Source of the DNA: Ectothiorhodospiraceae bacterium BW-2
GTDB taxonomy: Bacteria > Pseudomonadota > Gammaproteobacteria > Thiohalomonadales > Thiohalomonadaceae
DNA: 64,000 nucleotides
Assembly: GCA_008375315.1 (NCBI GenBank)
Contig: CP032507.1
Span: 372,001 to 436,000, forward strand
Direction: 5' to 3'
Shown in pieces: positions 4,474 through 19,533 of this stretch. Within the stretch, counting starts at the first letter, position 1; each line of letters opens with the position of its first letter. The notes under the pieces are model-generated. The model saw only the letters and a list, made by a program, of their open reading frames with translations. It was not told the DNA's origin and did no database searches. A program made the position numbers and the translations under genes.

Positions 4474-5769
4474 ATGCAGCAACTTAACTATAACGACACT
4501 CAATTTTGGCACCAACTAGAGCAGAAACTGACTTGGGAGGGGGTCTCTGATGAGAGCGTCAATCAGACAGTACGGGAGATTTTGCACCGAGTCAAAACCG
4601 AAGGCGACAGCGCCGTCATCGACTATACCAACCGCTTTGATCGCATGGCTATCGGCCACGCGAGCGAACTAGAGCTACCACTATCGCGGCTACAGACGGC
4701 GTTACAGGGCCTACCGACCGAGCAGCGACAGGCGTTAGAGCTCTCGGCAGAGCGAATAAGAGAGTACCATCAGCGCCAGCGACAGCACTCTTGGCGCTAT
4801 ACCGAAGCCGATGGCACTGTGCTAGGACAGCAGATCACCCCGCTAGAGCGAGCCGGGCTCTATGTCCCCGGCGGTAAGGCGGCCTACCCCTCCTCAGTCC
4901 TTATGAACGCCATACCGGCCAAGGTCGCCGCTGTCGGTGAGCTGATTATGGTGGTGCCTACGCCCGCAGGCGAGGTCAATCCTCTGCTCTTAGCCGCGGC
5001 GGCTATCGCTCAAGTGGATCGAGTCTTTACTATCGGCGGTGCCCAAGCGATTGCCGCGCTCGCCTACGGTACCGAAACCGTGCCTAAGGTGGATAAAATC
5101 GTCGGCCCCGGCAATATCTTCGTCGCCACCGCCAAGGGGATGGTGTTTGGGACGGTCGGGATCGATATGATCGCCGGCCCCTCTGAAATTCTTATCCTCT
5201 GTGACGGCCAGACCGATCCCGACTGGATCGCGATGGATCTCTTCTCCCAAGCAGAGCACGATGAGGATGCCCAGTCGATTCTCATCTGCCCCGATAGCGC
5301 CTTTATCGACCAAGTGCGAGTTAGCATCGATCGCCTACTGCCAACCATGGAGCGTAGAGAGATTATCGACACTTCGCTACAGCAGCGCGGTCTCTTAATT
5401 GAGGTGCCCGATATGGAGGCGGCAGTGAAGGTCGCCAACTTTATCGCTCCGGAACATTTAGAGCTATCGGTTGCCGATCCCGAAGCACTACTGCCACAGA
5501 TCCACCACGCCGGTGCCATTTTTATGGGGCGCTATAGCGCTGAAGCATTAGGTGACTACTGCGCCGGCCCTAACCATGTGCTGCCTACCTCGCGCACCGC
5601 TCGCTTCTCCTCCCCCTTAGGGGTTTACGATTTTCAAAAGCGCTCCTCCCTGATCTTCTGCTCCGCTGCCGGAGCCGCTACCCTTGGCCATAGCGCCTCC
5701 ATTATGGCGCGGGGAGAGGGGTTGACAGCGCACGCCCGTTCGGCAGAGTATCGGCTTAGCCGAACCTAG
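4474..5769 (+). CDS. hisD: Histidinol dehydrogenase
   Basis: Last two oxidations of histidine synthesis (L-histidinol to L-histidine, NAD and zinc dependent). The product is 431 aa, the usual length. Visible family blocks include [21 protein letters not shown], the [13 protein letters not shown] segment, [14 protein letters not shown], the [10 protein letters not shown] loop and the zinc/catalytic region APEHLEL with a downstream [13 protein letters not shown]. It starts 2 bp after hisG. There is no hisC downstream; the next gene is dtd. Confidence 0.97.
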
Positions 5770-5779
5770 CTAAGGCGCT

Positions 5780-6217
5780 ATGATTGGGCTGTTACAGCGG
5801 GTTTGCCACGCTTCGGTCGCTATTCAGGGCGAAACGGTGGCGCAAATCGACCAAGGCCTACTGGTGTTTATCGGTATTGAGCGACAAGATAGCCGCGCGA
5901 AGGCCGATCGACTCTTGCAGCGGCTGTTAACCTACCGAGTCTTTGCCGATAGCGAGGGCAAGATGAATCTAAATCTGCAACAGATCGAGGGGGGGCTGCT
6001 GCTGGTGCCCCAATTTACTCTGCCGGCCGATACCCGTAAGGGTAATCGTCCCGGATTTAGCCCTGCCGCCCCCCCTGAGGTGGGCGAAGAGCTGTTTAGC
6101 TATCTATTGACTCTGGCCCAAGCGGCACACACCCCAACGGCGAGCGGTCGCTTTGGTGCCGATATGCAGATTAGCTTGACCAATGATGGCCCAGTCACCT
6201 TCTGGCTACAGGGATAG
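5780..6217 (+). CDS. dtd: D-aminoacyl-tRNA deacylase
   Basis: Removes D-amino acids and glycine mischarged onto tRNA. The 145-aa product has the family length and the C-terminal block SLTNDGPVTFWLQG with the GPVT cross-subunit motif. The first active-site motif, usually SQFTL, reads PQFTL here (in LLVPQFTLPADT), so the usual serine is replaced by proline. The rest of the motif and the downstream NRPGFSPAAPP are normal. It lies 10 bp after hisD in the same direction, and the next gene starts 3 bp after its stop. Confidence 0.93.
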   Translation: MIGLLQRVCHASVAIQGETVAQIDQGLLVFIGIERQDSRAKADRLLQRLLTYRVFADSEGKMNLNLQQIEGGLLLVPQFTLPADTRKGNRPGFSPAAPPEVGEELFSYLLTLAQAAHTPTASGRFGADMQISLTNDGPVTFWLQG

Positions 6218-6220
6218 CGT

Positions 6221-6925
6221 ATGTTTCGTCTGCTTCGTCTCATTCGTACCTCGATTGGCAAAAAGCTGCTAATGTCGCTCTCGGGGCTAGTGCTGATTCT
6301 GTTTATCATCGGCCATGCGGTCGGTAATTTAACCATCTTTGTCAGCGCCAATGCGCTCAATACCTACGCCCACTGGCTACAGGAGAATCCGCTGCTGTGG
6401 TTAATACGGTTCGGCATGATCGCCATTTTGATGATTCACATTGCGCTAGCGGTGGTGGTTAGTCGTGAAAATCGCCGCTCCCGTTCGTGCGACTATGGTC
6501 ACGATACCCTCTGGCTGCGCCGTGTTAAGCACCCTTTTATGATGTGGAGTGGCGCTATTTTGCTACTGTTTTTGCTGTTCCATATCGGCCATCTTACGCT
6601 CGGTATCGGCGGCGAGCGCTATATGGCGCGACTCGATCACCAAGGGTATGTCGATGTCTATGCTCGGGTAGTCCTCTCATTTACCAACCCGTGGTTAACG
6701 ACTCTCTATCTCATCGCTATGGCAGCGTTAGGGCTCCACCTCTACCACGCTATTCGTAGCGTTTTTCAGACCCTCGGTTTCTATCACGATAACTACTTTG
6801 GCTTCTTTCATACCCTAGCACTGCTATTAACCCTGTTCACTGTCATCGGATTTATCCTTATTCTGCTCACTGCCCTACTAGGGGGGTTTGAGCTTGCAAC
6901 GGAGATTGACCATGCAGGTACCTGA
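6221..6925 (+). CDS. Succinate dehydrogenase/fumarate reductase cytochrome b subunit (five-helix type)
   Basis: A 234-aa membrane anchor of a succinate:quinone oxidoreductase. About five transmembrane helices are visible, with histidines in typical haem-ligand positions ([11 protein letters not shown] in helix 1, [11 protein letters not shown], and [16 protein letters not shown]). Size and layout match the single large diheme anchor of Bacillus/Wolinella/Bacteroidota-type enzymes rather than the paired SdhC/SdhD of E. coli. The flavoprotein gene overlaps its end by 14 bp. Whether the enzyme runs as succinate dehydrogenase or fumarate reductase cannot be decided. Confidence 0.9.
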
Positions 6926-8825
6926 TAGCCGCACCCCCTCCGGCCCGCTGGCTGACAAATGGGATAACTGCCGTAACCAGCTACAGCTTATTAGCCCCAA
7001 TAATAAACCCCGCTATCGGGTGATTGTGGTCGGTAGCGGCCTAGCCGGCGCGTCAGCCGCCGCCACGATGGCGGAGCTCGGCTATCGGGTCGAACTCTTT
7101 ACCTTTCACGACTCCCCGCGCCGCGCCCACTCTATCGCAGCTCAGGGGGGGATTAACGCCGCTAAAAACTACCGTAACGATGGCGACAGCATTCAGCGTC
7201 TCTTTTACGATACGATTAAGGGGGGCGATTTTCGCTCGCGTGAGGCCAATGTCTATCGACTCGCTCAGGTGAGCGGCAATATTATCGATCAGTGCGTTGC
7301 TCAAGGGGTGCCATTCGCCCGCGATTATGGCGGCTATCTCGATAACCGCTCCTTTGGCGGCACTCTCGTCTCGCGCACCTTCTATGCCCGTGGTCAGACC
7401 GGACAGCAGCTACTACTCGGTGCGTATGGGGCGATGAATCGTCAGATTCATAGCGGTCGGATTAAGCTCTATACCCGCAGCGAGATGCTCGATCTGGTCG
7501 TGGTTAACGGTCGCGCCCGCGGTATTATCGTCCGTCATCTGGTGAACGGTCAAATTAGCCGCCATATCGCCGATGCGGTGGTGCTGGCCACCGGTGGCTA
7601 TAGTAATATCTACTACCTCTCTACCAATGCAGCGGGCTGTAATGTCACCGCCACCTGGCGCGCCTATCAGCGCGGGGCGCTGTTTGCTAACCCCTGTTTT
7701 ACCCAAATTCACCCCACCTGTACCCCACTGAGCCACCCCGGTCAGGCGAAACTGACCCTTATGTCGGAGTCGCTACGAAACCATGGCCGACTCTGGGTAC
7801 CGCAACAGGCGGGGGATAGCCGCCCCGCTAACGACATTCCACTCTCAGAACGGGACTACTTTTTAGAGCGCAAATACCCCGCCTACGGCAATCTGTCACC
7901 TCGTGATATCGCCTCCCGTGCCGTCAAAGAGGTCTGCGATGAGGGGCGCGGCGTCGGGGCGATGGGGCGCAGCGTCTATCTCGACTTTGCCGATGCCATT
8001 GCCACCATGGGGCGGGAGGCGATTGAGCAGCACTACGCCAATCTGTTTGAGATGTATCAAAATATCACCCATGATGATCCGTGGCAGGTGCCGATGCAGA
8101 TCTACCCGGCGCCCCACTACACTATGGGTGGGCTGTGGGTTGATTACCATCTGATGAGTTCCATTCCGGGGCTGTTTGTCATTGGGGAGGCGAACTTCTC
8201 CGATCACGGGGCTAACCGCCTTGGCGCTAGCGCACTGATGCAGGGGTTAGCCGATGGCTATTTTATTTTGCCGCAGACCATAGGGGACTTTTTAGCGCAG
8301 CATCGCCCCGATCGACTCGACACAACAGCCGCTCCGTTTATCGCCGCAGAAACCGACGCTAAAGCGCGAATGGATGCCCTGTTAGCCATTAACGGACGCC
8401 GCTCGGTCACCGAGTTTCATCGTCAACTCGGAGAGATATTGTGGCAAGGTTGCGGTATGTCGCGCTCCGCTGCCTCATTACAACAGGCTTTAACTCAAAT
8501 TGAGGCGCTTGAGCATCAGTTTTGGCACGATCTGGCGCTCTGCGGTCACAGCGAGCAGCTGAATCAGAGTCTGGAACGCGCCGGTCGGGTCGCCGATTTT
8601 ATGCAGTTTGCTAAATTAATGTGTCTTGACGCACTGCAACGGGAGGAGTCGTGTGGTGCCCACTTTCGGGAGGAGTTTCAGAGCAGCGGCGAAGCGGCGC
8701 GTAATGATACCGCTTTTAGCCATGTCGCCTGCTGGTACAGGGGTGAAGGTGGCGATGCAGCGCAGCGGCTGACTGAGCCGCTACAGTTTGACAATATCGC
8801 CTTGGCAGTTAGGAACTATAAATAG
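6912..8825 (+). CDS. Succinate dehydrogenase/fumarate reductase flavoprotein subunit
   Basis: FAD-containing catalytic subunit, 637 aa from ATG 6912 (GGAG at 6901-6904). It has an N-terminal Rossmann motif [12 protein letters not shown], the covalent FAD-histidine segment [12 protein letters not shown], the active-site region around HPTC, and [22 protein letters not shown]. Sequence style matches the non-E. coli (Bacillus/delta/Bacteroidota) class, agreeing with the five-helix anchor upstream. The natural C-terminus (VRNYK) is present, but no sdhB/frdB follows: the convergent flgL gene overlaps the last 10 bp. The iron-sulfur subunit must be encoded elsewhere, or the complex is broken. Confidence 0.93.
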
Positions 8826-9766
8826 TTAAACAGACTAAGCTGATTGACTCGGGTATAGGTCTGCTGTAGTGCCTGCATTGAGGTCATCTCTTGGGTTAAG
8901 GAGGTAATCGCCTCGGTAATATCGACATCATGCACATCGGCCTTCTTCTGCTCTAAATAGAGCGAGTAGTCGAGATTGACCTCGCGCTGGGAGCTAATCA
9001 TATTCATCCGTGCCCCGGCTTCCGCCTGAGCATTAGTCACCCGCTCCATCACGGTATCAATTTGGCTTAAAATCGAACCGCCACTAGCAAGATTATCGGC
9101 TTTCAGCTCTTCGGCAAAATTCATAATCAGTGCGGCGATATTTTCACCGCCGTTGGTTCCCGGTGCTGTGCCGGTGCCAAACAGCGCATCGCCGTTACTT
9201 AACTGACCGGCATGGCCTAACGGCATCGTCACTCCATCGGCAATTCTGACCGCGCGTTGATTGTTATCACCGCTATAAGCACCCTGCCAAGTCGGTGGCG
9301 TGGTCGCTGGGGCAATTTCGGTCAAACTAAACGGTGTCACACTGCTGTTATAGCCGGAGAAGATATACTCCCCATCACTCCCTTTCGCATTCATCAGCCC
9401 AACTAGCTGTTCTGCCGCCAGTTCAAACTGTTTGGCCACTGCCGCCCGATCCTGAGTATTGAGGGTACCATTGACCGCCCGTACCGCCTCTTCGCGTACC
9501 GACTGCAAGACATCGCCAATGCTCTGTAGGTTGGTCTCCTCAAACTCTAATCGCGTCTCAGCGTAGTCCATATTGGAACTAAACTGCTCATAGCGGGCAA
9601 TTTCGCGCGTTAGCTCGTTAATTCTTGCCGCTCCGGCCGGATCGTCCGATAGCTTCTGAATACGCTGCCCCGAGCTAATTTGAGTCTGTAGGTTGGCAAT
9701 TTTCTCATACTTATTTTGCATCGCCTCAATAGAGAGGCGCTGCATGGTGGTTGTGGCCAGTTTCAT
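8816..9766 (-). CDS. flgL: Flagellar hook-associated protein 3
   Basis: Hook-filament junction protein exported by the flagellar type III system. The product is 316 aa with the flagellin-like N-terminal helix ([20 protein letters not shown]) and C-terminal helix ([27 protein letters not shown]), which pack together in the D0/D1 rod; the middle is variable. It lies 28 bp downstream of flgK and is presumably transcribed from the same sigma-28 promoter. Its end overlaps the convergent flavoprotein gene by 10 bp. Confidence 0.94.
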
Positions 9767-9794
9767 ACTATGAACTCCCGCTTAGTAACTATCA

Positions 9795-11468
9795 TTAGAC
9801 CCGTATTGAGCCGATTAAAATCCGAAACATCTCATCTGAGGCTGACATCACCTTAGCGGCCGCCTGATAGGCCTGTTGATAGCGCATGAGATTGGCCGCC
9901 TCCTCATCCAGATTAACTCCAGAGACATCATCCCGTGCCCGGCGTGACTGCTGATAGATCACCTCACTCGCCTCATAGGAGACTTTAGCCGAGTTAGCTT
10001 TCGAGCCAATATAGGAGACTAACCCCTCGTAGATCATATCGGCCGATTGGGTACTGCCATTAAAGCCTCTAAATTGCCCAACCTCAGCGAGTTGAGCCGC
10101 GATGACATTATTGCCCTCTTGGCCTGCGGTATCAGAGGCGGCAATATCGCGTGGCTCTTTAATCAGCAGCGCCATATCGCGGGCATTATTGGCAAAGGGG
10201 GTGACCAAAAAGCGATCACCGTTAGCGGCCACTCCTGAGGTGGTCAGGGTGACGCCATTAAAGGTAAAACTGGTCGCCGCACCACCCGCTCCAGCAAAGG
10301 TCTGTTCACTGCTATCGCGCTGATTAGTTACCTTCCACGCATCGGCAGGCCCATCATACTCGACTAGATATTGCGCTCCGCGCCAACTATCGATCACAGT
10401 ATCACTGTTAGTCGCTGGCAGAGGTGCAAAAGTATAGTCGTAGGCAACCGTGGCACCACTGCTATTGCTGCTACTATTGTAGGAGATAGCGGGGGCGGCG
10501 CTATTAAAAAATGGCTCATTGGTATCTCCATCCATATCAAAGCCATTTTGATGCAACTCATTAAACTTAATTGAGATTCCGGCTGCCATTAAACCAATAT
10601 CGTCTTTGGTGCGCTGTAACACTCCCTCTTTAAAATCGAGAGTCGCTCCAATTTTACCGCCATTAATTCGGTCAGTCACATCGGTAAAGCTGCCGGTATT
10701 GGTCACAATTCCAATTTTACGGGTATAACCACCAAACTCCGTCGTTTGCAGACTAAAGGTATTATGGTTCGCTCCGACGACTAGATTTTGACCATCGCCA
10801 ATGTAGATATTATTGGTGCCGTTGGGCATGTCGATGGTTTTTACCGAGACATACTCCGAGAGCAGATTAATTAACTGATCGCGTTGGTCTAGCAGATCAT
10901 TGGGTGTATCTTCGGCGGAAGTGGCAACATCCTGAATGTTGCTGTTAATGCCGGCAATTTGGGCAGCGAGTTCATTAACTGCCATCACCGAATCGGAGAG
11001 CTGATTATTTACCTGCTCGTCAATGGCGTTCAGGCGGTTACCTACCTCACGAAAGCGGGAGGCAAGGGTCTCCCCCCGCCCTAGCATCTCCTCCCGAGCG
11101 GCAATAGAGGTCGGATCGTTAGCCACATTCTCAACCGCATTAAAAAAGTCTTGGTTAAAGCGGCCGATACCGGTCTCGCTGTTAACTAGGATTTGGTCTA
11201 TCTCATCCATCAGATCCAAAGAGAGGTTATGCTCCTCTTTACGAGAGATGCTCTCCTGAAGATCGCGGCTCAGGTACTCATTGTAGTGGCGACGAATACC
11301 CTTGACTTCGACACCGGTACCCATCCCCCCCTCACTTCTGCGGGCAGTGAATTCGGTCTGTTGGCGAGTATAGCCCTCAGTATGGACATTGGCGATGTTA
11401 TTTGAGGTGGTCACCAGTGCATTTTGAAAGGCTACCAGCGCCGCACGCCCATTGGTAATAAGATCCAT
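9795..11468 (-). CDS. flgK: Flagellar hook-associated protein 1
   Basis: First hook-filament junction protein. The product is 557 aa. The N-terminus has the rod/hook signature ALVAFQNALVTTSNNIANVHTEGYTRQ, and the C-terminus has the FlgK block SGVNLDEEAANLMRYQQAYQAAAKVM. The middle is a variable, Ser/Thr/Asn-rich domain. A GGGAG ribosome binding site precedes ATG 11468, and a near-perfect FliA promoter lies about 50-75 bp upstream. No other flagellar genes are in the window, so flgKL is a late-class pair detached from, or at the end of, the main cluster. Confidence 0.95.
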   Translation of the reverse strand: MDLITNGRAALVAFQNALVTTSNNIANVHTEGYTRQQTEFTARRSEGGMGTGVEVKGIRRHYNEYLSRDLQESISRKEEHNLSLDLMDEIDQILVNSETGIGRFNQDFFNAVENVANDPTSIAAREEMLGRGETLASRFREVGNRLNAIDEQVNNQLSDSVMAVNELAAQIAGINSNIQDVATSAEDTPNDLLDQRDQLINLLSEYVSVKTIDMPNGTNNIYIGDGQNLVVGANHNTFSLQTTEFGGYTRKIGIVTNTGSFTDVTDRINGGKIGATLDFKEGVLQRTKDDIGLMAAGISIKFNELHQNGFDMDGDTNEPFFNSAAPAISYNSSSNSSGATVAYDYTFAPLPATNSDTVIDSWRGAQYLVEYDGPADAWKVTNQRDSSEQTFAGAGGAATSFTFNGVTLTTSGVAANGDRFLVTPFANNARDMALLIKEPRDIAASDTAGQEGNNVIAAQLAEVGQFRGFNGSTQSADMIYEGLVSYIGSKANSAKVSYEASEVIYQQSRRARDDVSGVNLDEEAANLMRYQQAYQAAAKVMSASDEMFRILIGSIRV

Positions 11469-11785: not shown

Positions 11786-14700
11786 CTATAACCCAAAAAA
11801 GCGACAGATACGCTGCTTCAGGCTAGCGCTATCCCCGCCTACCGCCTCGCTTTTGTTTGAACGGGCCGAAAGCGTGCTCTGCTGGCGCTGGTGCAACAGC
11901 CGACTGATGCGATCAACGAGCTGCCGATTCTGCTCTAGCAACGGCTGCATTACCGCTTTATCTATCACGTAGCCACAACAGTGACTTAACGCGACCACAT
12001 CGGCACTACGAGGCTCACCGGTAAAGAGCGCCATCTCCCCTATCACATCGCCTGCTCCGAGGCGTTGCAGCTCAATCGGCTCGCCTTGGTTCTGAGGCAG
12101 TCTCACCACAGCGGCCCCTTCACAGATAATAATCATTGAGCGCTCCTCATCACCACAGCCGATTAGCTGTTCCCCCCGAGGGTAGTGGCGCGTTTCGCTC
12201 CCCTGCAGTAGCTGTTCGAGCTCTTGCGGGGTAAATAGATCGTAAAATAGCTCCACTTCGCCGATTAGCTCGGCCGCAAGCAGAGTCGCCGCCACCTCCT
12301 CTTCAAGTAGCCGACTCTGTAGCAGCGGATTTGTCGCCAACTGAATGCCCGCCCAGTGCAGATGGCGCCAAATACGGCCCCAAAACGCCCGACTCAGACG
12401 CAGTTTAGCCCCAAAATCGCGACTGGTAAACCCGACAATATAGTGGGCGTTATACTCCTTTATCCCATTAAATTTAGCCCACGGCGCAGGAGTAGCCTCC
12501 ACCTCATCGATAGTCAGCAGCGCATCTTGCAAAATCTTCTCTACCCGATGTGGTAGCTCATCTGCATCGATAACCACGGTTAATACCGTTTCGTAGGCCT
12601 CATCTGGTAATGAGAAGTTCTGCACCACCGACTCCGACGCTACCGCATTAGGGATGGAGATAATCGTGCTATCACGACAGAGCAGCCGAGTCGAGCGCCA
12701 GGTAATATCGATCACCTTCCCCTCTTTCCCTCCTTGTAGCTGAATCCAATCCCCAATCCGAAACGGCCGCTCCAGATTGATCGCGATGCCGGAGAAGATA
12801 TTGGAGATATTGATCTGTATCGCCAGACCCACAATCATCGCAATCACCCCTGAAGTAGCCAACAGCGCGGTAATTTTATAACCAAAGACAAACGAGAGGA
12901 TCCCAAATCCCGCTAACAGCAGAATCAAGCCGCCACTAAACGCCCGCACCAAATTAGGAATTTTACGCCGAGTATGGTACTCCAGTGGCTGCCAGATGAA
13001 GGTCGCCATCGCACTAATGAGCAGCAGCGCCGGAATAAACCACCACAAGAGGTCAAATAGGGTGATAAACATTGCGCTCTCAAAGCGTCCCGAGCTCTGC
13101 TGTAGCCACTGTAGCAGCTCGACCTCCAGCGCTAGTAGTAGCAGCACAATCGCACCGCCTTGCAGCAGCCACACATAGCGCCCCCCCCCCTCCCGTCTAA
13201 CGCCTCTCCAGCGCAGCAAAAGTGGTAGCAGTAGCAGCAGCATAGCGCTACCCACCACCACCCAAAATGAGCGTTCGGGAGAGAGCATCCGTCGTAGCGA
13301 GAGGCTCTTAGTCGAGATATCGAGCACAAAGTTAAATTGTGAAAAGGGGATTTCACCCACGCCGCGATCAAGATAGTGGAGCTGCCCCATATTGTTCTGC
13401 AATAAGATATCGGGAAATAGCCGCACCCCATGTAGCTGCCAGTCATCGTGATCGGCAAAGAGGGTACTCTGCTGTAGCCGCTGTAGATAGTGATCGCTAT
13501 TTTCCATATTCATACCGACAATATCGGTAACATAGACTAACTGGCTACGATCCAGTCGCCGATGCCTAAAGGCCACCCCGACAATGCGCCCATCGAGCAC
13601 CATACTGCTAATCGCCCGATTCCAGTCGGTCACAAAGCGCCCGCTCAGATGAAAGCGCTGATAGACCACCCCGTTATCGAGCTGATAGCGATCCGGCTCA
13701 GGTAGCGTTATCGCCTCGGCGGCATTCACAAACTCGATATCGGTCGGATCGATCTGCTGCTGATGGCGAAACCAGAGATAAAAATCGAGCTCCACCATCC
13801 CCTCTCGTTCGGCAACCGGTTCAATACGATTGACGGTAATACCACTATGGACGACATAAATTTTCTGTAGATAGTGTTCACCTATCTGTAACAACTCCCC
13901 CGCTGCCACCGCCTCGGCCATCGCCTTAGGGGGTGAAACTATCTTAAGCTGTTCTAACTGTAATAGCGCCGATACCGGTCGATTACGCACAAAAGTGGCC
14001 ATATAGGCTGGCTTAAAGGCGTTTCCATGTTGATCAAAATAGGTCACTCCGGTAACACCGCTAACGCCACGCTCCACCGAGTTAAAGCGAACCATCGCCT
14101 GCCGTACCCGCTCTCTAACACCCTCAATCGGGCCATCACTACCGTTTAAACCCGCCTGCTGCAGGGCGCTAACCAGTACTTTAGCCGCGTCATAAGAGAA
14201 GGCCGCATGCCACCCCGGCTCAGAGTCAAACCGCTGCCGGTAGGCGCTACGAAACTTTTGCGCCTGCTGATTAGCCGTCTCAAACAGCATTGGCGACACC
14301 ACATAGCTGTTGCGTAGATAGTATCCCGGCTGGCGCTGCTCCTTCGGTAGCTGATCAAACGCGGTGGTAAAGGCGTTGTTGTAGAACGAGGTGGGGAGCA
14401 GGACGGTATTGTCGATCCCCGCATCACGCAGCTGCCGTAGTAGTAGCGCCCCCTCATGGTTATGACCGGCAATAAAAATAACCCCCAACTCAGACGCACG
14501 CGCAGCTAGCCCTAACGCTAGCTGCTGCAGACTCTGTTCCAGAGTCTCATCCTCCACCCGATAACCGTGCTGACAGCTTATCTCCATCTGTAGCTGCTCT
14601 GCCATAGTGATAAAACTCGCGGCTAAATCGCTGCCATAGGCAAGATCTTCATGAATCACACAAACCCGCTCAAAATTGAAGACCCCTTTAGCGTAGTAGC

Positions 14701-15196
14701 TCGCGATATGGGCCTCAAAGTCGTTATTAATAAGGGCACTAAAGTAGTAGGGGTTATCGCGGGTTATCGCCGGATTACTGGAGCTAGGGGTAATGGCTAC
14801 GATACCGGCCTGCTGATAGATCGGCGCTGCCGCGAGCGATGCCGAGCTGTAGTTATGGCCGATGACCGCCACACTCTCACCATCGCTAACTAGCTCTGCG
14901 GCTCGTTGTCGGGCTAACTCGGCTTGGTTCTGATCGTCATAGACATTGAGCACCAGCCGAGCGCCATTGACGCCACCGTGCTGATTCATCTCATCGATTA
15001 ACATCTCAATCCCGTTCAGGTGCATCTGGCCGGTAGTACTGTTTTTGCCGCTTAGCGGCAACACCACACCAATAGCGAGCTGCTGCTGCTGCTCCCCCTC
15101 CCCTAACCGCTCCATATCACTCTGATAGCGGTGCCAGATGAGCCCCACCAGAACCACGATCAACACTAAATAACCCATTTTGGCCAGTAGCCGCAT
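11786..15196 (-). CDS. Solute-binding protein / MscS channel / cyclic-nucleotide-binding fusion
   Basis: A 1136-aa membrane protein from ATG 15196 (GGAGGG ribosome binding site); the frame stays open to 15283 but the upstream part has no signal. Order: one N-terminal membrane helix (about 6-22); a periplasmic Leu/Ile/Val-type binding domain (about 40-400, starting IGVVLPLSGKNSTTGQ); a second extracytoplasmic beta-rich part (about 440-620) with DFYLWFR and DPTDIEFVN; several membrane helices (640-795); an MscS pore and beta domain (about 775-870, including the NIFSGIAINLERPFRIGDWI region); and a C-terminal cNMP-binding domain (about 985-1095) with the phosphate-cassette motif IGEMALFTGEPRSA. 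MscS proteins with cNMP domains are known as ligand-gated channels; the added periplasmic binding domain suggests gating by an external amino acid-like ligand as well. The function is inferred. Confidence 0.82.
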   Translation of the reverse strand: MRLLAKMGYLVLIVVLVGLIWHRYQSDMERLGEGEQQQQLAIGVVLPLSGKNSTTGQMHLNGIEMLIDEMNQHGGVNGARLVLNVYDDQNQAELARQRAAELVSDGESVAVIGHNYSSASLAAAPIYQQAGIVAITPSSSNPAITRDNPYYFSALINNDFEAHIASYYAKGVFNFERVCVIHEDLAYGSDLAASFITMAEQLQMEISCQHGYRVEDETLEQSLQQLALGLAARASELGVIFIAGHNHEGALLLRQLRDAGIDNTVLLPTSFYNNAFTTAFDQLPKEQRQPGYYLRNSYVVSPMLFETANQQAQKFRSAYRQRFDSEPGWHAAFSYDAAKVLVSALQQAGLNGSDGPIEGVRERVRQAMVRFNSVERGVSGVTGVTYFDQHGNAFKPAYMATFVRNRPVSALLQLEQLKIVSPPKAMAEAVAAGELLQIGEHYLQKIYVVHSGITVNRIEPVAEREGMVELDFYLWFRHQQQIDPTDIEFVNAAEAITLPEPDRYQLDNGVVYQRFHLSGRFVTDWNRAISSMVLDGRIVGVAFRHRRLDRSQLVYVTDIVGMNMENSDHYLQRLQQSTLFADHDDWQLHGVRLFPDILLQNNMGQLHYLDRGVGEIPFSQFNFVLDISTKSLSLRRMLSPERSFWVVVGSAMLLLLLPLLLRWRGVRREGGGRYVWLLQGGAIVLLLLALEVELLQWLQQSSGRFESAMFITLFDLLWWFIPALLLISAMATFIWQPLEYHTRRKIPNLVRAFSGGLILLLAGFGILSFVFGYKITALLATSGVIAMIVGLAIQINISNIFSGIAINLERPFRIGDWIQLQGGKEGKVIDITWRSTRLLCRDSTIISIPNAVASESVVQNFSLPDEAYETVLTVVIDADELPHRVEKILQDALLTIDEVEATPAPWAKFNGIKEYNAHYIVGFTSRDFGAKLRLSRAFWGRIWRHLHWAGIQLATNPLLQSRLLEEEVAATLLAAELIGEVELFYDLFTPQELEQLLQGSETRHYPRGEQLIGCGDEERSMIIICEGAAVVRLPQNQGEPIELQRLGAGDVIGEMALFTGEPRSADVVALSHCCGYVIDKAVMQPLLEQNRQLVDRISRLLHQRQQSTLSARSNKSEAVGGDSASLKQRICRFFGL

Positions 15197-15313
15197 GAAA
15201 CACCCTCCAATCAATCCATTAAAAAAAGAGCCTATAGGTTTTTGCCACCGGCTATGGTAACCTACCGCACTCATTGGGATCACTATCTAGTTTTTTTAAT
15301 CACTCTACACTCT

Positions 15314-17305
15314 ATGCGTTTACCTCTACGCCAGACCCAAACCGGTCTGCGGTTGCTGTTTTGGTTACTGCTCTGCTTCGTCTGGCTTAGCCACGGAGCC
15401 GCTGATTTGTGGGCCGCAGAGGTGAATCAAGATCAGATCGCACAGATTCAGCAGCAGCTAAATCAGCGCGGCTACGATGCAGGTCAAGTCGATGGCCTGC
15501 CGGGGCCAAAGACTCGTAGCGCCATTCGCAACTATCAGCAAGATCAGCAGCTACCGGTCGATGGAGAGTTATCAGAGCAGCTACTACAACAGCTAACCGC
15601 CCCGCAGGAGCCGTCCACACCCGAACCCGAACCCACACCTGAACCGGCAACGACGCCCCCCTTATCTCATGCCACAGCGGAGACCATTACAACGACAGCG
15701 CCCCCCACCGCTGCCCCCCCACCCGTCAGCTCGCCACCACCGCTCTCCCCCACGATAGCCGACCACCTTGACAGCGATGATCGCATGGCGCTCATTCGTA
15801 GCCGTGGCAAACTGATCGTCGGGGTCAAGACCGACTACCCCCCGTGGGGCGGCATTAATGAAAATGCTGACATTTACGGCCTAGAGCCCGATTTAGCGCG
15901 CGATCTGGCTCAGCGTCTCGGCCTTGAGCTGGAGTTGGTCAGCGTCACGGCGAGTAACCGCATGGGCAAGGTGGAAGAGGGGGCGGTGGATCTCATCATT
16001 GCCACGATGAGTGATACTCTCAAGCGGCGGGAGATCGCCGGCCTACTAGAGCCAAACTACTACGCCAGTGGGGTCAATCTCATGATCCACAAAGGGGTTA
16101 TCGTTAACTCTTGGGGGGAGCTACGGGGACGCAAAATCTGTCTCAATGAGTCAACCCACTTTAACCGCGTTCTGATTCAGCGCTATCTCATTGAGCCGGT
16201 GATCTTTAAAGGCAACCGCGATGCCCAACTGGCGCTGGAGGGGGGACGCTGTATCGGCTGGGCCTATGACGATACGGTGATTACCCGGCTGCTAAAACAG
16301 GAGCGCTGGAGCGACTTCTATATGCCACTAGAGTCGATTCTGGTCGGCCCTTGGTCGGTGGCAGTCAAGAGCAGTGAAGTTGATCGCGCCCTAGGACTCT
16401 TTGTCGCCGATACCATCGCCGAGTGGCATCGCAGTGGCTTTCTGCTGGCCAAGGAGGCGGAGTGGGGACTCCCTCCGAGCCCCTATCTACAGCAGCAAAA
16501 TCAGCTCTTTAACCAATTAGATGCCGATGGCGAACTACTCTGCCGCCGTGGCGAGGATAATCGCTTTCCACTACCGTGCCAAAACCAGAAGCTGCTGAAA
16601 GAGGCCGGTGTCGAAACGACGCCCAATTTTGACGGCATTCGCGGCTGGTTAGTCGATTTAGGCATCGACTTTGTCCCCCTAACTGACCCCTATGCGGGCG
16701 ACATTTTATGGCAGGGCATCGTGCTGACCCTTCTGCTCAGTCTAATCGCTATTGTCGGCTCACTGCTGTTCGGATTGGTAGCGGCCTATAGCCAGCTACG
16801 CGGCCTCTGGCCCCTAGGCTGGCTCTTCGCTACCATCGTACAGCTATTTCAGAAGACTCCCCCTATTTTACAGCTCTACATTATCTTCTTCGGGCTAGGT
16901 ACGGTGGCAGCGAATGAGTGGAATATCACCTTTAACGCCATCGCGGTAGCTGGAGTGGTCTTTTCGCTCTACGCCGGTGCTAGTAACGCGGTGGCGCTAC
17001 TGCATGCGATGGAAAATATCGGTGCCCGCTACCCCTATGATCCCCCCTATGCCCACCTAGCAGAGGTGATTGAGAGCGCCTTTAGCGCCCTAGTCGCTAA
17101 CTCAGTTAATATCGTTAAAGCGATTGGTATCGCCTCAGTGATTGCGGTACCGGAGCTCATTTCGGCCACCAATGCGATTTTATCTGAACATGGTAACAGT
17201 ACTGAAATGATGAACTTTTTAATGCTGTTCTATTTTCTACTGGTCGCCGTTGCGATCGTGTTACTCAATAGCTTGCGTCGGGTAGTCAATCGATGGGCCT
17301 CCTAG
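15314..17305 (+). CDS. Peptidoglycan-binding / amino-acid-binding / ABC permease fusion
   Basis: About 663 aa from ATG 15314 (an upstream ATG at 15254 is possible; no clear ribosome binding site at either). Order: signal anchor; a PG_binding_1 domain (about 37-95, IQQQLNQRGYDAGQVDGLPG); a Pro/Thr-rich linker (96-145); a family 3 solute-binding domain (about 160-385, LIVGVKTDYPPWGG and DLIIATMSDTLKRR); and a HisM/GlnP-type permease (about 465-660). Binding-protein/permease fusions are known in glutamine transporters of Gram-positive bacteria; the added wall-binding domain is unusual. The cytoplasmic EAA loop typical of ABC permeases is poorly conserved. It overlaps the next permease gene by 13 bp. 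No ABC ATPase gene lies nearby. Confidence 0.82.
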   Translation: MRLPLRQTQTGLRLLFWLLLCFVWLSHGAADLWAAEVNQDQIAQIQQQLNQRGYDAGQVDGLPGPKTRSAIRNYQQDQQLPVDGELSEQLLQQLTAPQEPSTPEPEPTPEPATTPPLSHATAETITTTAPPTAAPPPVSSPPPLSPTIADHLDSDDRMALIRSRGKLIVGVKTDYPPWGGINENADIYGLEPDLARDLAQRLGLELELVSVTASNRMGKVEEGAVDLIIATMSDTLKRREIAGLLEPNYYASGVNLMIHKGVIVNSWGELRGRKICLNESTHFNRVLIQRYLIEPVIFKGNRDAQLALEGGRCIGWAYDDTVITRLLKQERWSDFYMPLESILVGPWSVAVKSSEVDRALGLFVADTIAEWHRSGFLLAKEAEWGLPPSPYLQQQNQLFNQLDADGELLCRRGEDNRFPLPCQNQKLLKEAGVETTPNFDGIRGWLVDLGIDFVPLTDPYAGDILWQGIVLTLLLSLIAIVGSLLFGLVAAYSQLRGLWPLGWLFATIVQLFQKTPPILQLYIIFFGLGTVAANEWNITFNAIAVAGVVFSLYAGASNAVALLHAMENIGARYPYDPPYAHLAEVIESAFSALVANSVNIVKAIGIASVIAVPELISATNAILSEHGNSTEMMNFLMLFYFLLVAVAIVLLNSLRRVVNRWAS

Positions 17306-18822
17306 AGATTCTGAACGAACTACGCATCTGGACTCCCTACCTTGCCGGCGGGTTTATGATGAACCTGCTGCTATCGCTCCTCTCCATGGGGTTAGGCACT
17401 GCGGTCGGATGGGGGTTAGGCTGGATGAGAACCCTCCCCTATCGCAGTCTCAATCAGAGCGGGGCGCTCTTAACTAGCCTGTTTCGCAATATCCCTAGCT
17501 TCGTCTTTATGTTCTATATCGCCTTTATCTTACCAGTTGAGATCAACTGGGGCGATGAGGTGGTCAAGGTGCCCGCTTGGATTAAAGCCTCCATCGCTCT
17601 GATGGTACCCGTTACCGGCTTCGTCTCCGATCAGGTGGTTAAACTCTACCAGGATCGTCGCGCCGGCGGCCACCATCCGTTGATGAGCTTTGGTCTGGCT
17701 TGGACTCAATACTTCATCATTATCATTATGGCCTCCTCCACCGCTTCGGTTATCGGGGTCGATGAGATTGTCGCCCGCGCCAATACCGTCATCGCCGCGA
17801 TTCGGGCACCGGAGATTATGCTCTGGCTCTATCTGTATGTGGCTCTCTGGTTCCTGCTGCTAGGCAGGGTGGTCAGCCATATTGCCAATCGGCTGATGTT
17901 CAGCTCACAGATGAGTGACCGCGTCGTTCGGCGCGGCTATAGCGCTCTGGAGGTGCCAGGTCATGCCGATCGCTCCCCTGCTGAAACTGAAGCTCTCATT
18001 CGGCTAGGCAAACAGATTCAGATTACCGAGCTAAAAGGGAGCCTCTTCTCCGGTAACTGCCGGTCATTACAACAGCAGCTACTCCCCCTCCTGCTACAGC
18101 ACAATGGTGGCTATACTATTCTCGACTGTCACGCTTTAAGTGATCTCGATCAAGCTGCAATCCGGCTGCTGCGACGGCTGCACCACCTAGCTCTTGATAA
18201 CCGCTGCCGACTGGTACTGACCGGCCTACAGGAGAGCCCGACCCTCTCCGAAAAGCTACAAAAGAGCGGCATACTCTACTTAGTAGGCGCAGAGCATCAG
18301 TTTGAGACGGTGCATGATGCCATATTTGCCTGCGAAGATCGGCTGCTAGATCGCGAGCTAGGGCCACACCGCTACCATACAACCGTCCCATGGAGTGCGT
18401 TTAACATTCTAAAGCTGTTTAGCCGTGTCGAGCTCGATCTGTTTGAGACCTATCTTGAACAGCAGCGGTATCCGGCCAAAACGGTTATCAGCCACCAAGG
18501 CGATCAGGATGGACGACTGCTGCTAGTTCGTTCGGGTCGCGTACTAGCGCTCTCCCGTGGTCGTCACGGCCGTTCCAAACTGCTCTACGCCTTCTGTCCC
18601 GGCAGTATGATTGGCGAGATGGCGCTACTTGACAATGAACCCCGCTCAGCCACCATTGTCGCCGAGATGGACTTAGCCGTTGCAGAGCTGACTCCGAAAG
18701 CCTTTAAGCGGCTACAGCAGGAGCAGCCCCAGTTGGCTAATCGACTCCTCTCCGGTATCGGTATTGTCATGAGCCAGAAGATCCGTACTTTAAATCGCAC
18801 TGTGATGGCGCTAGAAGATTAA
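17293..18822 (+). CDS. ABC permease / STAS / cyclic-nucleotide-binding fusion
   Basis: A 509-aa protein translationally coupled to the upstream permease (13-bp overlap). Residues 1-205 form an amino-acid ABC permease domain with about five helices. Residues about 240-350 look like a STAS domain (ITELKGSLFSGNCRSLQQQL, then YTILDCHALSDLDQAAIRLL). Residues about 370-490 form a cNMP-binding domain with the phosphate-cassette motif IGEMALLDNEPRSA, whose arginine contacts the cyclic phosphate in CRP-type domains. STAS plus cNMP tails are familiar on SulP sulfate transporters, but I do not know them on ABC permeases. With the preceding gene it would form a heterodimeric membrane pore regulated from the cytoplasm. 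Confidence 0.82.
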   Translation: MGLLEILNELRIWTPYLAGGFMMNLLLSLLSMGLGTAVGWGLGWMRTLPYRSLNQSGALLTSLFRNIPSFVFMFYIAFILPVEINWGDEVVKVPAWIKASIALMVPVTGFVSDQVVKLYQDRRAGGHHPLMSFGLAWTQYFIIIIMASSTASVIGVDEIVARANTVIAAIRAPEIMLWLYLYVALWFLLLGRVVSHIANRLMFSSQMSDRVVRRGYSALEVPGHADRSPAETEALIRLGKQIQITELKGSLFSGNCRSLQQQLLPLLLQHNGGYTILDCHALSDLDQAAIRLLRRLHHLALDNRCRLVLTGLQESPTLSEKLQKSGILYLVGAEHQFETVHDAIFACEDRLLDRELGPHRYHTTVPWSAFNILKLFSRVELDLFETYLEQQRYPAKTVISHQGDQDGRLLLVRSGRVLALSRGRHGRSKLLYAFCPGSMIGEMALLDNEPRSATIVAEMDLAVAELTPKAFKRLQQEQPQLANRLLSGIGIVMSQKIRTLNRTVMALED

Positions 18823-18858: not shown

Positions 18859-19533
18859 ATGCAGAATCCACTACGCTACTACTTCTTTGACCCTTATGTG
18901 ATCAAAATCGGTCTGGAGGGGGGAGTATGGGAACCAACCCCTCACGGCCTAGCCTTGGCCGAAGGGATGGTGGCAGCCCGAGAGGCGATCTGCCACCAAA
19001 CCGTGTTAGAACTCGGCGCAGGTTGCGGCATTCATGCCATTTTAGCGGCCAAAATTGGCGCAGCAGCGGTCGATATTACCGAAATCAACCAGAGCTATCT
19101 CGACAATGCCGCTGCAAATGGCGCTCTAAACGGCATCAGCTACCGTCAGGCACTGGTGCGCGACTGGAGCCACTTTAGTGTCGCTGAAGGCTACGATCTA
19201 CTCCTCTGTAATCCGCCCTTTTGCAAATCGGGAAAGCCGATACGACGCCACTTTATTCATCAATTGCTACAAGACACCCCTAAGTTGGTTAGATCCGGTG
19301 GTAAGCTGCTGTTTGTTCAAAGTAGCATGGCCGACTTTCGCCTTACCGAACAGCAGCTACAGGATCTAGGTATGAGCTACCGTGTGGTGCTGCAAAAACG
19401 GGGCGTGTTTCGCGACTACTATTTTACTGAGCCTAATTTTATGGAGGAGTCTGCCACCGTCGCTAATGGGTATGAGCTCATCGACGGCTGCTATATTGAG
19501 ACGCTACGGGTCTATCTAGCGACGCTGCCCTAA
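18859..19533 (+). CDS. Class I SAM-dependent methyltransferase
   Basis: A 224-aa Rossmann-fold methyltransferase. The SAM-binding motif is LELGAGCGIHAILAAKIGA, followed by an acidic residue in DITEINQ, and motif IV is LLLCNPPF. NPPF is typical of enzymes that methylate amide or exocyclic nitrogens (PrmC, RsmC/RlmG and DNA N6-adenine groups). The substrate is unknown. There is an AGGAG ribosome binding site before ATG 18859. It follows the permease gene by 36 bp, so may be read through from it, but no functional link is evident. Confidence 0.8.
   Translation: MQNPLRYYFFDPYVIKIGLEGGVWEPTPHGLALAEGMVAAREAICHQTVLELGAGCGIHAILAAKIGAAAVDITEINQSYLDNAAANGALNGISYRQALVRDWSHFSVAEGYDLLLCNPPFCKSGKPIRRHFIHQLLQDTPKLVRSGGKLLFVQSSMADFRLTEQQLQDLGMSYRVVLQKRGVFRDYYFTEPNFMEESATVANGYELIDGCYIETLRVYLATLP

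Follow-up and report, generated by a model that had tools for sequence, protein, structure and literature searches.

Three genes at positions 11786 to 18822 of a 64,000-nucleotide stretch from Ectothiorhodospiraceae bacterium BW-2, the whole of which we call the window, probably encode a ligand-gated MscS channel with two sensors (the left gene) and an ATP-independent receptor or gated pore (the two right genes). We are inclined to see the left protein as a pore-swapped Cys-loop receptor, in which type I periplasmic-binding-protein (PBP-I) and nicotinic-type sensors gate an MscS pore, maybe with another subunit number, by way of a coupling loop whose sequence has changed; proteins of this kind occur in several families of the phylum. 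The right proteins we would see as receptors derived from ABC permeases that work without an ATPase and relay the presence of amino acids to cyclic-nucleotide signalling. The left and right units lie back to back with probable start codons 117 bases apart (ATG 15196 on the minus strand and ATG 15314 on the plus strand) and are divergent, not facing each other as stated in a first-pass annotation made from the sequence alone. The remainder of that description was borne out by Pfam, TIGR01726 and a tblastn search of the window: three frames carry fused domains, two of them (the left protein and right protein 2) end in cyclic-nucleotide-binding (cNMP) tails, no ATPase is nearby, and every domain named (Peripla_BP_6, MscS, cNMP, STAS, PG_binding_1 and SBP_bac_3) was found.

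The left gene (11786-15196, minus) occupies an open frame of 11786-15283 in which GGAGGG stands ahead of the probable start, giving a protein of 1136 amino acids. Its N-terminal Peripla_BP_6 domain (13991-15076; Pfam E 1.1e-43, PDB entry 4gnr E 3.2e-24) resembles amino-acid-binding proteins. Toward the C-terminus, the MscS beta domain (12611-12808) was matched by MS_channel_2nd at E 4.6e-16, and pore and beta domain together matched MscS 7dlu at E 5.9e-15, placing the protein in the MscS superfamily. Behind this pore comes a cNMP domain (11927-12190; Pfam E 2.9e-18) that matched domains of the protein-kinase-A/G and CRP types, the arrangement of bacterial cyclic-nucleotide-gated (bCNG) channels. 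Peripla_BP_6 and MscS are separated by about 230 residues, at 13286-13975, which the first-pass annotation passed over; the domains it listed are present, and the one it missed, the extracellular domain (ECD) of a pentameric ligand-gated ion channel (pLGIC), is the most telling part of the protein.

The identity of this middle domain was reached via homologues, profiles and folds because sequence-only searches gave nothing useful. Genome searches were made on samples of 369 genomes of the class and 398 of the phylum at set E-value cut-offs. The left architecture turned up in four genomes of the class sample (G301, G195, G051 and G006), with 33-37% identity across stretches of about 880-1140 residues; it is complete in the first three, while the G006 match covers residues 265-1146. 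Two further proteins, L073 and L074, aligned to the left protein over Peripla_BP_6 and the middle domain (31% and 30% identity) and are shorter, at 773 and 741 amino acids. The pLGIC-pore family PF02932 matched L074 at E 2.6e-4 and L073 at E 0.15, both below Pfam's cut-off, and residues 471-738 of L074 matched ELIC (4twd) at E 2.7e-9, its N-terminus matching amino-acid-binding proteins. Because homologues with the same middle end in a pLGIC pore, the middle of the left protein is assigned as a Cys-loop/Pro-loop receptor ECD. Aligned by hhalign, seven rows with an MscS pore matched seven with a pLGIC pore at E 1.3e-51 over 220 columns.

Predicted folds gave the same answer. A first AlphaFold model of the ECD, built on nine alignment rows, two of them with a pLGIC pore, had a pLDDT of 70; nicotinic-receptor and acetylcholine-binding-protein (AChBP) domains led its Foldseek list (rank 1, E 9.4e-9) and were matched in VIA with Z 14.8 and a root-mean-square deviation (rmsd) of 4.3 over 170 aligned residues. 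Since two rows of that alignment were pLGICs, a second model of ECD plus pore was made from 22 MscS-pore rows only (pLDDT 76). Its residues 3-225 again matched AChBP (Z 14.5, rmsd 3.7, 164 aligned), and the remainder matched MscS-type channels, with a YnaI-MscS chimera at Foldseek rank 1 (E 7.9e-14) and, in VIA, MscK over 232-555 (Z 14.3, rmsd 11.0) and MscS over 290-555 (Z 14.1, rmsd 9.2). Five membrane helices are predicted between the ECD and the beta domain (12770-13279, model residues 233-402), an odd number that fits an ECD outside and a beta domain inside. The left protein has the extracellular beta-sandwich ligand-binding domain of a pLGIC, as judged by profile and models; the Pro-loop proline is missing, and an MscS pore follows the ECD in place of the four-helix pLGIC pore. 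Because pore and Pro loop both differ, the protein is not a pLGIC, and its sensor side may work like that of one.

The loop that couples sensor to pore changes with the pore. The Pro-loop proline is described, in the abstract of PMC4795631, as the only absolutely conserved residue of the pLGIC sensor-pore interface loop. The PxDxQ motif of this loop was present in all eight pLGIC-pore rows, which amount to fewer independent ones because L107 and L108 are near-copies, and in none of the 25 scorable MscS-pore rows (L077 could not be scored). The left protein reads SSMVLDGR at this place (13586-13609, minus), with MVLDGR at the aligned positions. Among the MscS-pore rows, the loop aspartate was retained in 4/25 and replaced by glycine in 18/25, and six rows assigned to neither pore class split three to three by loop type. 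The change of loop fits a sensor that would now touch a different pore.

The fusion is found in many genomes. The ECD profile matched 43 of the 398 phylum genomes, the BW-2 genome included, and the class and phylum searches together gave 40 loci that were classified: 26 with an MscS pore, eight with a pLGIC pore and six in neither class. Some of the rows being sorted had gone into the local profiles used for sorting, and their matches are built in from the start; four further loci from the class search, L079-L082, in which no ECD was seen, stand outside the 40. Most of the MscS-pore loci have Peripla_BP_6 and ECD together, with conserved residues, although Peripla_BP_6 was not seen by Pfam in L078 nor in the fragment L077. 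At least six of the 26 carry a cNMP tail (L068, which is the left protein, L069-L072 and L078), a lower bound because some stretches end early. The ECD-MscS proteins L075 and L076, from family f117, have some tens of residues inserted after the ECD's conserved GM motif and have no cNMP tail. Elsewhere in BW-2 another Peripla_BP_6-ECD-MscS protein is encoded, this one lacking cNMP (G000:C1:3165084-3168113; L118 7085-10114); the genes that it adjoins resemble, by reading, a type I secretion set. The ECD was matched in open frames of both sizes in G420, G446 and G471, suggesting that both kinds of pore occur within one genome.

In a tree of the ECD rows without the six class-less ones, a single change parted the two kinds of pore, with a support of 70 from a short search. 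When the six formed a group of their own beside the two kinds, four changes were needed for the MscS label and three for the pLGIC label, and a fork of all 24 MscS rows and the three class-less rows with the MscS-type loop had a support of 92/92. The tree is provisional because it has long branches and a midpoint root, and alignment A4 omits five of the 26 MscS-class rows (L068, the same as the window protein, L077, L078, L095 and L104).

The right unit resembles an amino-acid importer that has lost its ATPase-docking loop. Right gene 1 (15314-17305, plus; open frame 15242-17305) joins PG_binding_1 (15428-15595, Pfam E 4.5e-15), SBP_bac_3 (Pfam-matched stretch 15812-16246, E 4.2e-18) and a PAAT-type permease whose three-transmembrane (3-TM) domain was recognized by TIGR01726 (16703-16984; 49.3 bits, cut-off 42.2). 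Right gene 2 (17293-18822, plus) joins a second such permease (TIGR01726 at 17335-17631, 44.1 bits against the same cut-off) to STAS (18019-18321, E 5.1e-9) and cNMP (18463-18723, E 3.7e-18) domains. For comparison, the alignment of the permeases took in three ordinary relatives, in which solute-binding protein (SBP), permease, permease and ATPase are separate neighbouring genes (L029-L031, L065-L067). In right gene 2, 20 alignment columns, including the ATPase-docking EAA loop, are deleted (17647-17694); in right gene 1, 11 columns are missing just before the loop and the motif itself is degenerate (16982-17059). PF00528 matched neither right permease and matched an ordinary permease fragment from the same genome at 1.9e-21. 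The pair thus has the SBP_bac_3 and two 3-TM domains of an ABC importer and lacks both the docking loop and a cognate ATPase gene close by; tblastn with two amino-acid-type ATPase queries, at E up to 1e-3, gave no ABC ATPase anywhere in the 64-kb window.

This arrangement recurs. Right gene 1 was matched in 14/398 phylum-sample genomes, its own counted (E up to 1e-30), and SBP and permease form one frame in four others, G537, G659, G507 and G646. A second permease adjoins the fusion in all four (L130-L133), with the same gaps, at about 24-41% identity to the right proteins, and no ATPase was found in the 9-14 kb around each pair; L131 has poor gene calls owing to high G+C, and its neighbours are known mainly via tblastn with five queries. 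An EAA-less, ATPase-less SBP-permease/permease pair is thus a small family. Loss of the EAA loop, and four relatives whose pairs have no ATPase nearby, make a receptor more probable than an importer for the right unit, and the first-pass preference for a receptor or channel over a classical importer holds. The possibility that the fusions are assembly artefacts fails, since many genomes have the left architecture and four besides BW-2 have the SBP-permease fusion.

Pfam scans of two relatives, L130 and L133, showed neither PG_binding nor STAS-cNMP, both of which the window pair has. In G507 and G646 (L132, L133) the pair adjoins one protein with matches to a class III cyclase domain and a Cache-type (dCache) sensor, the two cyclase proteins being 57% identical to each other, which fits a link to cyclic nucleotides: by position to synthesis in these two, by a fused binding domain in the window pair. 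A second, weaker class III cyclase match lies near the pair at L132 9994-10515 (27% identity, E 9.6e-11). The BW-2 genome carries four class III cyclases, so that a cyclic nucleotide is probably available. The STAS-cNMP tail of right gene 2 was nearest to tails of SulP transporters, at 31% and 28% identity to L010 and L037; these have STAS-cNMP tails by Pfam, and one comes from the same family as BW-2. Three weak partial genome matches to right gene 2 were not used.

The IGEMAL..EPRSA cassette that the first-pass annotation pointed out in both cNMP tails is real, and is the phosphate-binding cassette of the domain. It is also ordinary: the genome has 17 cNMP matches, and of four other cNMP domains read in frame two have GEIGLLTQTPRSA and GEGALLLDRPRSA, one has GEEALISNNKRNA and one is without the cassette, so that the motif was rejected as a mark of special kinship between the two tails. 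Both cassettes look competent by their residues. Elsewhere in the genome (L119 6367-9219 of G000:C1), a 950-amino-acid protein combines two cNMP domains with an NTE-kind patatin phospholipase domain.

Several observations weigh against the readings given above. Direct Pfam and PDB sequence searches with the ECD gave no pLGIC match; the best PDB hit was 3dcx (E 0.43 and 0.96), and Pfam gave just two families, both weak and unrelated, each in a single member. PF02931 had no match in the genome, and control genomes were equally silent, so this is no evidence of absence. The ECD models are of modest confidence (pLDDT 70 and 76) with pore matches at high rmsd (9-11 Å), and the loop proline is retained in 5/25 MscS-pore rows. 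On the right side, the first permease of L131 retains the letters EAA, the residues ahead of them being gone, and no cyclase was found in the fetched stretches of G537 and G659, two of the four relatives. No other sampled genome was seen to carry both the left and the right unit.

Given these points, we considered whether the left protein might be an ordinary bCNG/MscS osmotic valve, with periplasmic domains that are tethers or levers and no gating by ligand. The intact MscS pore and cNMP tail would suit such a valve, and some bCNG channels are tension-responsive, to go by a title cited in PMC4560390, although opening under membrane tension is a trait that some MscS subfamilies lack; the retention of the sensor pair, with conserved residues, in most classified MscS-pore loci, and its presence on a true ligand-gated pore in L073/L074, make this explanation unlikely. 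That left and right genes form one machine coupling external amino acids and wall state to a cyclic nucleotide is suggested by divergent genes a mere 117 bases apart and by the cNMP domain that ends each unit. The genome lists of left-type and right-type proteins overlap only in BW-2 among both samples, however, so the first-pass annotation's own test of co-occurrence does not support the three genes as a single conserved unit, and we find one machine rather unlikely; cooperation of the two units is possible, with comparative support absent among the sampled genomes.

For the right pair, the presence of SBP_bac_3 and both 3-TM domains raises the question of an amino-acid importer that borrows the AapP-like ATPase encoded at G000:C1 near 3071231, which is the closest one that BW-2 has and is 53% identical to the ATPase of L029. 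It is of the amino-acid type, and the permease gene next to it is interrupted by a transposase. The first-pass annotation had proposed looking for an orphan ATPase, and this candidate was rejected as one, since it stands last in a row of genes for an SBP, a permease and a permease fragment that belong to another transporter. With the EAA loop gone from both permeases and the four relatives' pairs, and no ATPase nearby at any of the five loci, borrowing seems quite improbable. The same missing loops and ATPase could mark decaying remnants of an importer, but the frames are long, their extra domains are intact, and four other genomes share the loss in frames that are likewise open and are about 24-41% identical to the window proteins. 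This recurrence points to a function that is kept, and we regard decay as highly improbable. The transporter run itself (L064, G000:C1:3066000-3080000, at 5103-11376, minus) is of the general amino-acid type, with SBP, permease, permease fragment and ATPase, and is split by a DDE_Tnp_1 transposase gene (6635-8428); a transposase frame of equal length and with the same start occurs at L119 3860-5653.

We therefore return to the reading of a ligand-gated channel beside an ATP-independent receptor. In the left protein, two periplasmic sensors, an amino-acid-binding-protein-like domain and then a nicotinic-receptor-type ECD, would bind a small molecule, perhaps an amino acid, and so open or close an inner-membrane MscS-type pore, with the cytoplasmic cyclic-nucleotide-binding tail as a second input that would set the response. 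On the right, two ABC-permease-derived proteins without the docking loop would sense amino acids without ATP hydrolysis, acting as an amino-acid receptor or gated pore whose output would pass through STAS-cNMP and be tuned by cyclic nucleotide.

Of the remaining features, the intergenic stretch (15197-15313) gave no signal above chance in a promoter scan, and terminator scans did no better. A methyltransferase (MTS) gene (18859-19533, plus) begins 36 bases downstream of right gene 2 and may share its transcription unit, though its link to the system is weak. Methyltransferase genes also neighbour the pairs in L132 and L133, where they are 62% identical, and presumably in L130, judging by a motif alone; between the window enzyme and that of L133 the similarity is weak (21.6% over 171 residues, E 0.001).

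Known systems resemble each half in part. PBP-I-fused bacterial pLGICs, or acetylcholine-receptor-type ligand-gated ion channels (ART-LGICs), were reported by Tasneem et al. (PMC549065), who state that bacterial forms retain the ligand-binding domain and 4-TM core; MscS is not mentioned in that text. The left protein has the same N-terminal succession of periplasmic-binding and nicotinic-type ligand-binding domains and differs in its MscS pore, its lost Pro-loop motif and its gain of a cNMP tail. It shares the MscS pore and C-terminal cNMP domain with bCNG channels, which are known as MscS proteins with a cNMP tail (Caldwell et al. 2010, by its title as cited in PMC4560390), and is unlike them in its two large periplasmic sensor domains; according to the introduction of PMC4560390, MscS subfamilies vary in the ligand-binding domains that they have gained and in their large extracellular loops, and domains of the left type are not named there.

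The right pair shares SBP_bac_3 and two permease halves with polar amino-acid ABC importers, for which we take GlnHPQ and AapJQMP as the type, and differs in lacking the EAA loop and a near ATPase and in its fused wall-binding and STAS-cNMP domains. Where SulP transporters join their STAS-cNMP tail to a Sulfate_transp membrane domain, right gene 2 joins it to an ABC permease. Full-text searches of an open-access library, which leaves out most subscription journals, turned up no paper recognized as describing a pLGIC-ECD/MscS fusion or an EAA-less, ATPase-free permease receptor.

In animals, Cys-loop receptors serve as the fast receptors for neurotransmitters, and it has long been asked how their sensor moves the pore. 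Proteins in which one pair of sensor domains sits either on its usual pore or on an MscS pore unrelated to it, and in which the loop thought to couple the two changes to match, offer ready-made comparisons for this coupling and raise the question of whether a sensor familiar from five-fold receptors could work a pore that is known to be heptameric. They also offer a ligand-gated role for MscS channels. As the transporter-like neighbours of the left gene have lost what is needed to use ATP, the locus as a whole resembles equipment for sensing chemicals more than a pump for nutrients. ATPase-free permease pairs beside nucleotide cyclases suggest a route from importers to receptors; if the reading given here is true, ATPase-free ABC-permease receptors would be a second undescribed kind beside the pore-swapped receptor.

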